Shown here: in pieces, positions 58,725 to 64,000 of the stretch
Numbering within the stretch: position 1 is the first letter of the stretch
Layout: each line of letters starts with the position of its first letter
Assembly (NCBI RefSeq): GCF_040712075.1
Contig: NZ_JBFCVL010000001.1
Coordinates: 255,501-319,500 of the forward strand
Source of the DNA: Fodinicurvata sp. EGI_FJ10296
GTDB lineage: Bacteria > Pseudomonadota > Alphaproteobacteria > DSM-16000 > Inquilinaceae
DNA: 64,000 bases
Reading direction: 5' to 3'
Position numbers and translations under genes: made by a program
Notes under the pieces: model-generated
Told to the model about the DNA's origin: nothing
Database searches by the model: none
Seen by the model: the letters and a program-made list of their open reading frames with translations, nothing else

Positions 58725-59339
58725 TTACAGTTGAACAACCCCATAGATATGCGAGAATCGGTCGAGATTCGGCGGTTTGGCAGAAGAGTCGGCCAGAGCG
58801 TGAACGGAACCCCAATTATAAAGATTACCATTGTTGTCGACATAGACCCAATGCCTGAGCCCGCCATTATATCCGATGCCGACGGCACATTCGCGATGCT
58901 TTATCAGGCTCGCCTGCGACAGGGATGTCGGAACAGTTCTCTTTATCGAGCACTGAGCGCCTGCGAAGTCTGCGTAATCGGCAACCGCGTTCGTCGGCAT
59001 GGCAACGCCGATGCCGCCCTGATTGATGACGCTGGCCGTGTCGTGGGCCGAGCTTTTCAGTTCACGCTCAAGGTGGCGGATCAGGTCCGGGACCCCGGTA
59101 TACCTGTTATACGGATGACCGAAACTCTTGGTAAATGTAAGTATTTCATTCGTAATGGTCGGGTTCTGCAGATTTCGTACCTTTAGATAAGTTATGACCT
59201 CCGCAACCAGCCTCTTCTGCACGGACTCGATACCGAGTTCCGTGCCGAATTCTTTCAGCTTTCCGTTCATGTGCAGAGCGTTCAGTACCGACACGAAGCC
59301 GCACACACCCCACTTGCCCTGCTTGACGATCCCGCCCAT
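58725..59339 (-). CDS. putative papain-like cysteine hydrolase
   Basis: A 204-residue protein without a signal peptide. Gln7 and Cys13 (VKQGKWGVCGFVSVLNALH) form the oxyanion-hole Gln and nucleophile pattern of papain-like peptidases, and HWVYVDNNGNLYNWG (His163 with nearby Asn/Asp) is a candidate for the rest of the triad. I know no exact family. Lower G+C than neighbours and its isolated position suggest an accessory, perhaps toxin- or effector-like protein. The ATG at 59339 follows GGTAGGG. Confidence 0.55.
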   Translation of the reverse strand: MGGIVKQGKWGVCGFVSVLNALHMNGKLKEFGTELGIESVQKRLVAEVITYLKVRNLQNPTITNEILTFTKSFGHPYNRYTGVPDLIRHLERELKSSAHDTASVINQGGIGVAMPTNAVADYADFAGAQCSIKRTVPTSLSQASLIKHRECAVGIGYNGGLRHWVYVDNNGNLYNWGSVHALADSSAKPPNLDRFSHIYGVVQL

Positions 59340-59967
59340 GGCACCCTACCGATGTTTTCCCGCTTTCCCGGCGATTGCAACTGGCCGAACCGATGACCAC
59401 ACGGCATCGACCAGGCAATCGATCAGCGATGATCGCAGAGCATCGCGACTATGGCAACCTATGGTTGATCTGTTCTTGGGCCATGCGCAGAGCTTCTGCA
59501 GCTCACGGTCGAACGCATGTGCTGAATTTGCGCTCCCCCGGGCTATCCGACTCCCCGGAAAGACTGCTTCTTTCCGCTGGCCGGACATGACGTCCGTGAA
59601 GAAAATTATATTTCTCGATATTTTACCGCATTGAGTCGAATTGAGTAGATTCCGATGATACACACGGCTTTGCATTTGGCATAAGTTCCGCAGCCACGCA
59701 TCGGGCAGCGATCTCAATTTTCGTAAATTTCGGAATTCTTCGCAGGCCTGTTTCGATCGGCCGATTCTCCGCGCTTGTTGTTTGAGCCGCAGCGCGGCTG
59801 CTTTTCCGAACTGCTCATGTTCGGGCAACCGTAACCAGATCTTTTGCTGGCGCCGACGGCACTCGCGTCGCCGCAGTTGCACACGCTGAATGCGAGCGGC
59901 GCCTTGACCCGTTGGTCGTGGTGTTCGTGCACCAACTTGGAATCACAAAAAGTACAAGGAGGCATTG
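59340..59967. other. long intergenic region before the LuxR gene
   Basis: Open frames here on both strands look non-coding (biased composition, no recognisable motif). The segment near 59590-59700 is A+T rich and probably carries promoters. SD AAGGAGG at 59955-59961 serves the LuxR gene. Confidence 0.45.
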
Positions 59968-60744
59968 ATGGATAGTGGGAGCCGTGAGTTTGACATTGAG
60001 CGGCCATTGCAGGGGATGGGTGTTGTGGTTATCGACCCAAGCCGCCTCTTTCGCGAAGGCATGAAACACTTGTTCGAGGCGACCAGGTTCAGAATCGTGG
60101 CGGGGGCCGGGTGTCTGGACGAGGTGATGCCGGAACTTCGACGCGCCCGGTCGGAGCCACGACTTCTGATCGTCAATTGGTGCGATGATGACCCGGACTT
60201 CCTCAAATCCATCATCGAGTTGAACGCCATGGGCAGTGCTTATCAAATCGTAGCGATAAACGCCCGCGTTGAGAGCCACGGCTTGATGGTAGCCTTGCGC
60301 GCTGGGGTAAAGGCATTCCTGCTGAAAGACCTATCGGCCGATGCACTGATCCAGTCGTTACGATTGGTGGAGATGGGAGAGATCGTGTTCCCAACGGAAC
60401 TGGCAGCGTTGTTGACTTCCGGCAGTGTGAAATTTTCCGAGCGGGGCAATCCGGTGGCCAAGCAGGCTGCGGCATCGATTACCGACCGCGAATTGGACAT
60501 TCTGCGATGCTTGATACGGGGCGAGCCAAACAAGGTCATTGCTGTTCAGTTCAAGCTTAGCGAAAACACGATCAAAGATCTCATGAGAATTCTATTCAAG
60601 AAGACCGGTACCGGGAACCGGACCGAGGCGGCGATCTGGGCCTTGGATCACGGGCTTGATCGTGTCCTGGGTGATGACCCGAAATCGGCCACCGATTCCG
60701 TTTCGCGTTCACCCGCGACCACTGCGACCATGGCGATTGTTTAG
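59968..60744 (+). CDS. LuxR-type response regulator with degenerate receiver
   Basis: A 258-residue regulator. The C-terminal LuxR HTH is ITDRELDILRCLIRGEPNKVIAVQFKLSENTIKDLMRILFKK. The receiver starts VVVIDPSRLFREGM, keeping one acidic-pocket Asp, but the phosphoacceptor position reads LLIVNWCDD, with Asn where Asp is expected; the conserved Lys is kept (AFLLKDLSAD). It is therefore likely phosphorylation-independent. The start at 59968 follows a strong SD. It may control the downstream CsgG-like locus, by position only. Confidence 0.85.
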   Translation: MDSGSREFDIERPLQGMGVVVIDPSRLFREGMKHLFEATRFRIVAGAGCLDEVMPELRRARSEPRLLIVNWCDDDPDFLKSIIELNAMGSAYQIVAINARVESHGLMVALRAGVKAFLLKDLSADALIQSLRLVEMGEIVFPTELAALLTSGSVKFSERGNPVAKQAAASITDRELDILRCLIRGEPNKVIAVQFKLSENTIKDLMRILFKKTGTGNRTEAAIWALDHGLDRVLGDDPKSATDSVSRSPATTATMAIV

Positions 60745-61716: not shown

Positions 61717-62553
61717 ATGATTACCAAATCTATTAGCGCATCAATAATTGCCAGCGCGCTCCTATCCGGCTGTGCCGGCTCGATGGCAACACAAAGCAAT
61801 GGTGTACAACCAAGCTATTCGTACCCGGTTACATCGAATTATACGCCGTACACCCGGTGCCTGGCGCAGCTTGCCGAACTGCCCGGCGACAATGTCCCGA
61901 CCTTCACGGTCGGCGAAATCCTGGACAAGACCGGACAGCGCGACACGGAAAGTGACAGCATGGTGCTGACGCAGGGCGTGACCGAAATGGTCATGAGTGC
62001 CATGTGGCGCACCCGCAAAGTCCGTCTGGTCGAGCGCTTCGATCTGCGCATCCCGCTCGCCGAACGCGAGATGGTCAACCAGGGCATCATGCCCCGGACA
62101 TACCCGAACAGCCCGACTGTCAGGCCGTCGAACTTCGTCGTGCTCGGCGCGCTAACCGAGCTCAACTACAACATCGTCAGCCAGGGCGCCGGGCTTTATG
62201 TCGGCGGCGCCGGTCTGGGCGGACGTTCGGTCGTGATCAATGTCGGCCTCGACCTCAGGGTCGTGAACCCCGTCACCTTCGACGTCCCCTATGTGACCAC
62301 GCTGCAAAAACAGATTTCCGGCTACGAAGTGGAAGCCAATGTCTTCCGCTTCTTCGGAGACCAACTCGTCGAGTTCGACGCGGGTCGTATCGAAAACGAA
62401 CCGCTTCAACTCGGCGTGCGGTCCGTCGTGGAGATGGCAACCCATCAGATCATGACGGATTTCCTCGGACTACCCGCCAGTCCTGAATGCGAACTGGCCG
62501 AGACCGAGTTCTTTACTGAAACCCTCAATCGCAATCGTACATCGGAGAGCTAG
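61717..62553 (+). CDS. CsgG/HfaB-like outer-membrane lipoprotein
   Basis: A 278-residue protein, the same size as E. coli CsgG (277). The signal peptide ends in a lipobox (ALLSGC, Cys19). The CsgG domain shows FTVGEILDKTGQRDTESDSMVLTQGVTEMVMSAMW, VRLVERFD, VRPSNFVVLGALTELNYNI and VGLDLRVVNPVTFDVPYVTTLQKQISGYEVE. CsgG-type lipoproteins assemble into a nonameric outer-membrane pore for curli, and HfaB does so for the Caulobacter holdfast anchor. It is followed immediately by a secreted repeat protein, a probable substrate. Confidence 0.85.
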   Translation: MITKSISASIIASALLSGCAGSMATQSNGVQPSYSYPVTSNYTPYTRCLAQLAELPGDNVPTFTVGEILDKTGQRDTESDSMVLTQGVTEMVMSAMWRTRKVRLVERFDLRIPLAEREMVNQGIMPRTYPNSPTVRPSNFVVLGALTELNYNIVSQGAGLYVGGAGLGGRSVVINVGLDLRVVNPVTFDVPYVTTLQKQISGYEVEANVFRFFGDQLVEFDAGRIENEPLQLGVRSVVEMATHQIMTDFLGLPASPECELAETEFFTETLNRNRTSES

Positions 62554-62555
62554 TT

Positions 62556-63614
62556 ATGAGAGTCTCACAAAAACTCGGCATGTATGCCGGCGTTTCCGCA
62601 GCCGCCCTGGGCCTCGCGCTCATCGCCGTTCCCGCTTCAGCATTCGACGAGGTCAACTGGACCTGGAATGCCGCAATCGACGAAACCGTCACCAAGACGG
62701 TCGATATCAATGTCGACCTCAACCCGACCGGCATGACCATGCTGGAAGACCTGCAAGTCTCGATCGGCGACCACACGGCCACCAGCAGCGTCAACGACAT
62801 CTTCAACAACCAGCCCAGTGCCGGTGTCGACAACAACGGTGAAGCGACAGTCGATTTCAATTGGACCACGGAGGTCGATGACCTCGCCGCTGGTCAAGTT
62901 AGCTCCACAACAATTCTCGACTCCGCTGACGACGTCATATTCCTGGACGAAGCCGGCAATGAAATTGACCCTCTTGAGCTGACTTGCCAGGGCACTGCTG
63001 AATGCGACGATAGCGGCGTTTTCTCCATCGTTGTCGAAGTTGACGGTGAGTTCATTGAACTCGACTCGCTCGATGCCGCAACCGAGTTGCCGGAAGTCAT
63101 CAGCGCCGCCACGGCCGTGGCGAACAACACGGCGATCGAAACCGACACCTCGGTCCAACTGCATGAAGGCCAGTTTGCCTTCGGCGGTGGAAACGGCGAC
63201 TCAGGCGACTTCAACGGTTTCAATGGCGTCGACGGCGACCCTGATGGCATGAACTCCAACCTGGTCGCTGCCAGCACGCTCGGCGCAGCCGCCATCCTCG
63301 GCATCCTGGACCAGGCCGAAATCAACGCCGACTCCCAGGTCGGTAACATACACAACGCAAGCGTCGACAGTTCGGCCACTGCGGTCGTCAACAACCTGAC
63401 GGTCGATGTCGCCGCCGAAGGCGACGACCGCCTGCTGATCGGGGATGCGGTTCAGTTCTCGTATGCCAACACCAACGCCATGTCGGATGTTAGCGGCGTC
63501 TACCTGAACAACTACACCAACCTCGGCGAGATCGACCGGGCGATCACCAACTCGGTCGCCACCGCAGTCGGCAACAACAAGTCGATCACCGTATCAGCGC
63601 CTGTGATCGAATAA
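62556..63614 (+). CDS. secreted repeat protein, candidate fibre subunit
   Basis: A 352-residue protein with signal peptide (LGLALIAVPASA). It is acidic, rich in Asn, Asp and Thr, and poor in Lys. Three similar motifs recur: ISAATAVANNTAIETDT, DSSATAVVNNLTVDV and TNSVATAVGNNKSITV, with core ATAV-x-NN. This spacing and Asn content is like curli- or HfaD-style beta-rich fibre proteins. It lies two bases past the CsgG-like gene with a SD (GGAGAG) in that gene's 3' end. Function is inferred from context. Confidence 0.7.
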   Translation: MRVSQKLGMYAGVSAAALGLALIAVPASAFDEVNWTWNAAIDETVTKTVDINVDLNPTGMTMLEDLQVSIGDHTATSSVNDIFNNQPSAGVDNNGEATVDFNWTTEVDDLAAGQVSSTTILDSADDVIFLDEAGNEIDPLELTCQGTAECDDSGVFSIVVEVDGEFIELDSLDAATELPEVISAATAVANNTAIETDTSVQLHEGQFAFGGGNGDSGDFNGFNGVDGDPDGMNSNLVAASTLGAAAILGILDQAEINADSQVGNIHNASVDSSATAVVNNLTVDVAAEGDDRLLIGDAVQFSYANTNAMSDVSGVYLNNYTNLGEIDRAITNSVATAVGNNKSITVSAPVIE

Positions 63615-63667
63615 GTCTTTTTCGGATCCGGCACTCGATAGGCGGCTTTATCGGGTGAAGGTAGGCT

Positions 63668-63705
63668 GGGCGGAATGGGGAAACCCATTCCGTCCGACCG
63701 TTTTT
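63668..63705 (+). terminator. rho-independent terminator after the repeat protein
   Basis: GGGCGGAATGGG, loop GAAA, CCCATTCCGTCC form a 12-base stem with one G-U pair, followed after five bases by TTTTT. It separates the following small secreted protein into its own unit or reduces its expression. Confidence 0.82.
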
Positions 63706-63797
63706 CCGGGCCGTATTTTTCATTCGGCCGAAATTCAGATTTCTCCCGATCGGGCCGGTCGCGCCATTGCGGCCCGCAGGTCAGGAGATGACGATCC

Positions 63798-64000
63798 ATG
63801 GGAGACATGACAATGAGGTCAATAACCATTCTTTGCGGCGCCATCTGCGGTCTTTTTCTCGCCGATGCCGGCGCGACGGCGCTTCATCTGCCGACGCCGC
63901 TCTCCGTTCAGACGGCAGAAGCGCAACAGATGAGCAAGCAGCCCTGGAGCCCGACGGCGCGCAACAGGAGCCTGTCCGCCCAATTCCAGCATTCCGATCG
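63798..64000 (+). CDS. small secreted protein, partial, HfaA/curlin-like candidate
   Basis: The frame runs to the window edge. It begins MGDMTMRSITILCGAICGLFL, a signal peptide, followed by the mature-looking segment QPWSPTARNRSLSAQFQHSD. ATGs at 63798, 63807 and 63813 are possible; AGGAG lies ten bases before the first. It follows a CsgG/repeat-protein pair and may be another exported subunit, but only about 67 residues are visible. Confidence 0.55.
   Translation, partial: MGDMTMRSITILCGAICGLFLADAGATALHLPTPLSVQTAEAQQMSKQPWSPTARNRSLSAQFQHSD

Follow-up and report, generated by a model that had tools for sequence, protein, structure and literature searches.

What kind of secretion system is encoded at the right-hand end of the 64,000-nucleotide stretch of DNA analysed here (the window; contig 1, positions 255501-319500 of the source genome)? 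Three genes, which we call G, B and C, follow one another on the + strand: a gene for a CsgG-like lipoprotein, one for a secreted repeat protein and one for a small secreted protein that crosses the edge of the window. An earlier note had likened this arrangement to hfaABD or to curli. The likeness stands, as G is nearest to HfaB, C is related to HfaA and the linkage is tight; the G-B-C cassette is most likely a new variant of the HfaABD/curli-type surface systems.

G (61717-62553, + strand, 278 aa) matches the Pfam family CsgG (PF03783) with an E value of 4e-26 and 92 bits, passing the cut-off of 20.8, and a lipobox, LLSGC, with Cys19 can be read from its sequence. On this evidence the lipoprotein described in the earlier note is a true member of the CsgG/HfaB family, and it is predicted to be a secretion pore of the outer membrane, which in this superfamily is a ring-shaped oligomer. 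The solved structures of Escherichia coli CsgG are matched at an E value of 1.5e-20. In the alignment to CsgG, G is shorter at YPASNF, a stretch of the constriction loop; because this stretch is missing in G, its gating may differ from that of CsgG. The match to the NCBIfam CsgG model stays below the cut-off of that model, and the 148 bits reached against the NCBIfam HfaB model lie below its cut-off of 300, compared with 375-393 bits for the true HfaB proteins of two other loci. A maximum-likelihood tree unites the G proteins linked to B in one branch (support 89/92); beside it stands a separate branch of HfaB-type proteins (97/92), and curli CsgG lies outside both (99/97). The tree label 'HfaA/D-linked' is confirmed by HfaA matches at loci L081 and L086-L089 only, of which two HfaA/HfaB loci also pass the NCBI cut-offs of the curated models; the remaining members so labelled are HfaB-type by tree position alone. 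In this tree, HfaB is the closer relative of G and curli CsgG the more distant one, and G belongs to a sister branch of HfaB.

Two nucleotides after G begins the reading frame of B (62556-63614, + strand, 352 aa), a secreted, acidic protein and the predicted main surface subunit. Both the signal peptide (cleaved between ASA and FDE) and the three ATAV-x-NN motifs that had been pointed out are present: ATAVANN, ATAVVNN and ATAVGNN start at residues 185, 274 and 335, and none of 20,000 shuffles of mature B reached three such motifs, the shuffle maximum being one. Mature B contains 56 acidic and 4 basic residues. Pfam and NCBIfam searches matched B to no family, in line with the view that it does not belong to a known non-fibre family.

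In an alignment of 18 B proteins of 222-584 aa, a single invariant Gln and a single invariant Asn occur in each of three repeats, with variable linkers between them; Q67/N190, Q206/N279 and Q300/N340 are among the columns that are invariant in 18/18 proteins. Repeat 1 is divided into a first half (62739-62808, + strand, residues ~62-84), with the invariant Gln67 and Ser77, and a second half (63099-63146, + strand, residues ~182-197), with ATAVANN at 185-191 and the invariant Asn190; the variable linker that parts them is of low confidence in the AlphaFold2 model. Repeat 2 (63156-63410, + strand, residues 201-285) has Gln206, a variable linker of its own, and Asn279 within ATAVVNN at 274-280. 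Repeat 3 (63435-63599, + strand, residues 294-348) has Gln300, and Asn340 within ATAVGNN at 335-341.

The AlphaFold2 model of B, based on an alignment of 15 sequences from which the plasmid-borne B proteins were left out, has a mean pLDDT of 58.9; 151 residues reach at least 70, nearly all of them within the repeat core. This core is modelled as beta strands, and the signal peptide and the linkers are of low confidence. Compared with the PDB, the model finds the FapC amyloid as its first match (E value 7e-3, probability 0.33) and a CsgA fibril as its fourth, both non-significant, and a fold search against viral models gave no usable match. Judging from the model, the repeats may form a short beta-solenoid. 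A profile comparison of B with HfaD-type proteins, a set of ORFs filtered by composition, scored 29 with a shuffle maximum of 20 and an hhalign probability of 8%, which is only suggestive of homology. The identification of B as HfaD itself was rejected, the curated HfaD model being negative on B.

C starts at 63798 or 63813 on the + strand, runs past the window edge at 64000 and, read onward in the contig, ends at ~64331; the further signal-peptide ORF that had been noticed at the edge is thus present and encodes a secreted, Gln/Asn/Ser-rich protein of 172-177 aa. It matches no family in Pfam or NCBIfam, and the curated HfaA model gave a best E value of 0.44 over 16 C members. Profile comparison of C with HfaA scored 39, and 60 column shuffles reached 14 at most; searching each family with the HMM of the other gave cross-matches at 3e-6 and 7e-7, and the comparison of C with small proteins encoded beside phage and Variovorax HfaB-like genes scored 37.5 versus 15. 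By these profiles C is a distant relative of HfaA with an Asn/Gln half-repeat. An N-terminal pattern seen by eye (Pro, Asn seven residues on, helix) had made CsgF a candidate, which was rejected at a profile probability of 1.5%. The AlphaFold2 model of C has a pTM of 0.14.

From the analogy with curli and Hfa, we infer that G exports B and C and that B assembles at the surface. G would be exported as a lipoprotein and form a CsgG-type outer-membrane pore, while B and C would pass the inner membrane via Sec before being threaded unfolded through G. Once at the surface, the three repeats of B would fold into a short beta-solenoid with a Gln ladder and an Asn ladder, and folded B would stack, giving either fibres or a surface layer; C may either nucleate B or anchor it to G. 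We consider it rather probable that the cassette encodes such an HfaABD/curli-like system for the secretion and assembly of surface proteins, with G as the pore, B as the subunit and C as the HfaA-like component.

The spacer between B and C, in which a strong terminator had been proposed, contains two stem-loops on the + strand. Stem-loop 1 (63632-63657) has the motif GCGGCTTNNTCGGRTG, and stem-loop 2 (63664-63699) has a 13-bp stem, with a hairpin at 63667-63696 and a T-run; together, the pair has a z score of -6.2. The proposed hairpin and its T-run are real, but the hairpin is the second of two conserved stem-loops, and the T-run is limited to the window copy, so that the word terminator describes the element only in part. 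Both stem-loops are kept in 6/6 B-C spacers of this genome, where 7 of 30 predicted pairs have two-sided changes that keep pairing, and GCGGCTTNNTCGGRTG is confined in this genome to B-C spacers, four of them. In each of eight spacers of other genomes, a strong stem-loop is likewise predicted (z -2.6 to -5.2), its sequence unrelated to the own ones, which brings the count to 14/14 B-C spacers folded; a search of Rfam with the spacer hairpins returned no match. Stem-loops after a highly expressed gene of an operon are known to protect the upstream message, and those after B would hold its output above that of C, such that B may be made in excess. PMC5927463 deals with differential decay across operons.

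Linkage of the 352-aa protein to the CsgG-like gene, which the earlier note had made a matter of comparison across genomes, proved to be essentially complete. G-B-C occurs in the same order in seven further alphaproteobacterial genomes, and also in Tianweitania sediminis, on the Photobacterium ganghwense plasmid pPGC22 and on plasmids of Vibrio alginolyticus. In a sample of 385 genomes of the class, the G subfamily (E value below 1e-100) is found in 8 and B in 9, and 8/8 genomes with G carry B; in the ninth genome, B lies ~240 bp from a contig end. The probability of this overlap by chance is ~1e-15 when the relatedness of the 385 genomes is not corrected for. Weaker matches to G (E values 1e-40 to 1e-52) in 21 further genomes, and in a second copy in genome G054, are HfaB-type, and B is present in 0/21 of the genomes that have such matches only. 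Wherever it was found, B directly follows G, except for one B of this genome that has no G, and the gap between them is -4 to +3 nt in every complete cassette. C follows B at each locus, the match in genome G110 being weak and in an overlapping frame. On contig 8 of G110, a curli-type locus that includes CsgF and a G-B cassette lie 40 kb from each other, the positions being ~99 kb and ~139 kb. Among 398 genomes sampled across the phylum, B is present in only four, all of this class, and B is hence a rare family of patchy occurrence. Searches of further genomes of the same taxonomic family did not find this G subfamily in any of them, and no relatives of B or G were found in the viral contigs searched.

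Two of the plasmid loci have phage-type neighbours. At locus L094 (Vibrio alginolyticus plasmid NZ_CP082321.1), the cassette is located among PmgB, PmgC and tail tube genes, and at locus L093 (Vibrio alginolyticus plasmid NZ_CP082309.1) it lies beside a gene for a DarB-like protein, a protein released on infection. By their gene content, at least two carrier plasmids look like P1-type phage-plasmids, of which G-B-C is a probable cargo. Within the open-access literature, the accessible parts of a curli diversity survey (PMC3521004) and of papers on phage curli (PMC7029224, PMC9599517 and PMC9004378) do not describe the G-B-C arrangement.

A pure anchor role, as in Caulobacter, is the main rival to secretion and assembly of a polymer: G would hold B and C at the surface to tether exopolysaccharide, with no extended polymer. 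Both the closeness of G to HfaB rather than to curli CsgG and the relation of C to HfaA favour such an anchor, as does the precedent itself, for Caulobacter HfaA and HfaD are surface-located in dependence on HfaB, and losing any of the three proteins sheds the holdfast (PMC6707917). However, no polysaccharide synthesis or export genes lie beside any cassette read, and one polar anchor would need neither several cassettes per genome nor carriage on phage-plasmids. Nor was HfaD detected: its model has no match in the genome at an E value of 10, although this model reaches few HfaB genomes and misses many of them because HfaD is very variable. We regard a pure anchor as unlikely; the anchor and fibre readings are compatible, since HfaA forms heat- and SDS-resistant multimers.

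G is present in five copies in the genome, and B and C in six copies each; they make up five complete G-B-C cassettes, plus a B-C pair that lacks G. In addition to the window copy, there is a second cassette at 89.5-92.2 kb and an array at 457.9-469.1 kb that comprises three complete cassettes and the G-less pair. Identity to the window copy amounts to 84-91% for the four G paralogues, 42-68% for the five B paralogues and 45-67% for the C paralogues. Synonymous divergence in G is low at codons 135-252 and high at the start of the gene, and this distribution suggests gene conversion of the barrel part of G. Divergence of B and C far beyond that of G, with a synonymous pattern as if gene conversion kept the pore alike, would also fit a general pore G that serves a paralogous family of surface or released proteins that diversify and do not polymerise, with roles such as kin recognition, phage exclusion or adhesion, and carriage on phage-plasmids would suit such proteins. 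Nevertheless, assembly accounts better for the strict three-repeat Gln/Asn pattern across genomes and for the likeness of C to HfaA, and no toxin or enzyme domain was found; we judge this explanation distinctly improbable.

A LuxR/NarL-type response-regulator-like gene (59965-60744, + strand, 259 aa) accompanies the cassette in the window. It matches Pfam GerE (4e-12) and Response_reg (1e-5) and, below both NCBIfam cut-offs, NarL (92 bits) and CsgD (60 bits); in its receiver domain, the usual phospho-acceptor Asp is replaced by Asn. Paralogues with 36-46% identity adjoin the other cassettes of this genome, and a related LuxR-type gene is located near every alphaproteobacterial G-B-C locus examined, save on a truncated contig. 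The gene is a probable regulator of the cassette, whose expression would thus be under a CsgD/NarL-type protein. Even though CsgG, a CsgD-like regulator and an HfaA-like protein together recall both systems, it is barely credible that the cassette merely escaped recognition as a curli or holdfast operon of the usual kind, as searches of the genome found no curlin repeat (PF07012, none at an E value of 10), CsgF (PF10614; the earlier note had likewise seen no csgF) or HfaD, and G scores below the HfaB cut-off and falls outside the curli and HfaB branches. Among the cassette proteins scanned, there was no match to CsgE.

Several other genes were observed near the cassettes or related loci. A further family of small secreted proteins, E, occurs near LuxR regulators at six loci (L008:7692-8204, L072:1841-2395, L075:9833-10621, L076:6132-6611, L077:10056-10571 and L078:10778-11308); most of its members begin with N-x-P-[FY] after the signal peptide, and none of the curated families matches the copy of this genome. 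A Sel1-repeat-like protein is encoded after the cassette at L073:7406-8380, L078:6368-7483 and L079:7646-8566, and downstream of G at L085. On the - strand of the window, a 204-aa ORF (58725-59339) with the motifs KWGVCGFVSVLNAL and HWVYVDNNGNLYNWG has the look of a papain-like cysteine protease; its Pfam search gave no significant match. Loci L083 and L090 display a second layout, which consists of a small secreted protein, an HfaB-like protein with an OmpA-like tail, a protein of 402-405 aa and a repeat protein of 1176-1574 aa, and which possibly specifies a larger surface fibre.

Within the preferred reading of a surface secretion and assembly system, formation of fibres or amyloid by B is suggested by analogy. 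To our knowledge, the bacterial functional-amyloid systems with a known exporter are few: curli, Fap and HfaA. B may found a new class of functional amyloid, namely a three-layer, Fap-like solenoid with Gln/Asn ladders that is secreted by a third branch of CsgG/HfaB pores of its own, travels through proteobacteria in a mobile three-gene cassette, P1-like phage-plasmids included, and has been amplified into diversified arrays; we consider this proposal as a whole possible, yet short of probable. If true, the export range of the pore family would be widened by a third branch paired with an unnamed repeat protein of its own, and G-B-C would tie surface-fibre genes to phage-plasmids. The 222-aa B protein of Vibrio would then offer a compact natural subunit for structural work. 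Our results also suggest that three-gene surface systems, with partners for which there is no family model, lie behind many genes annotated only as 'CsgG/HfaB family protein'.

Among the known systems, Caulobacter HfaABD likewise consists of a lipoprotein of the CsgG family and two secreted proteins rich in Asn and Thr that are encoded next to it; C shares the half-repeat of HfaA, and B follows the pore gene as HfaD does there. In contrast to the order HfaA-HfaB-HfaD, the order here is HfaB-B-HfaA-like, there are several cassettes per genome, LuxR-type regulators lie beside the cassette, G is on a branch of its own below the HfaB cut-off, and B is missed by the HfaD model. Curli (type VIII secretion, CsgABCDEFG) shares with the cassette a CsgG-family pore, a CsgD-like regulator and small Asn/Gln-rich secreted proteins, but the cassette has neither curlin repeats nor CsgF, G is without the CsgG constriction stretch, and where curlin repeats are short, those of B are long, three in number and joined by variable linkers. 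Jumbo phages of Brevundimonas and Caulobacter (L095, L096 and L097) encode a small secreted protein, an HfaB-like lipoprotein and an HfaD-like repeat protein, in CcrColossus as gp241-243. These modules resemble G-B-C as a unit of small secreted protein, CsgG/HfaB pore and repeat protein on a mobile genome; their pore genes, however, group with the HfaB-type part of the tree, and the B model does not find their repeat proteins. Pelagiphage modules differ in that their genes are described as curli CsgG/CsgF. The exporter of Pseudomonas Fap, FapF, is unrelated to CsgG, and no sequence similarity of Fap to B was found; FapC is the top, non-significant fold match of B. In the published description of FapC (PMC12392863), linkers that vary join three imperfect repeats, in which Asn and Gln form a conserved network, and it is this architecture that FapC/FapB and B have in common: three imperfect repeats, linkers of variable length, and a conserved Asn and Gln in each repeat.
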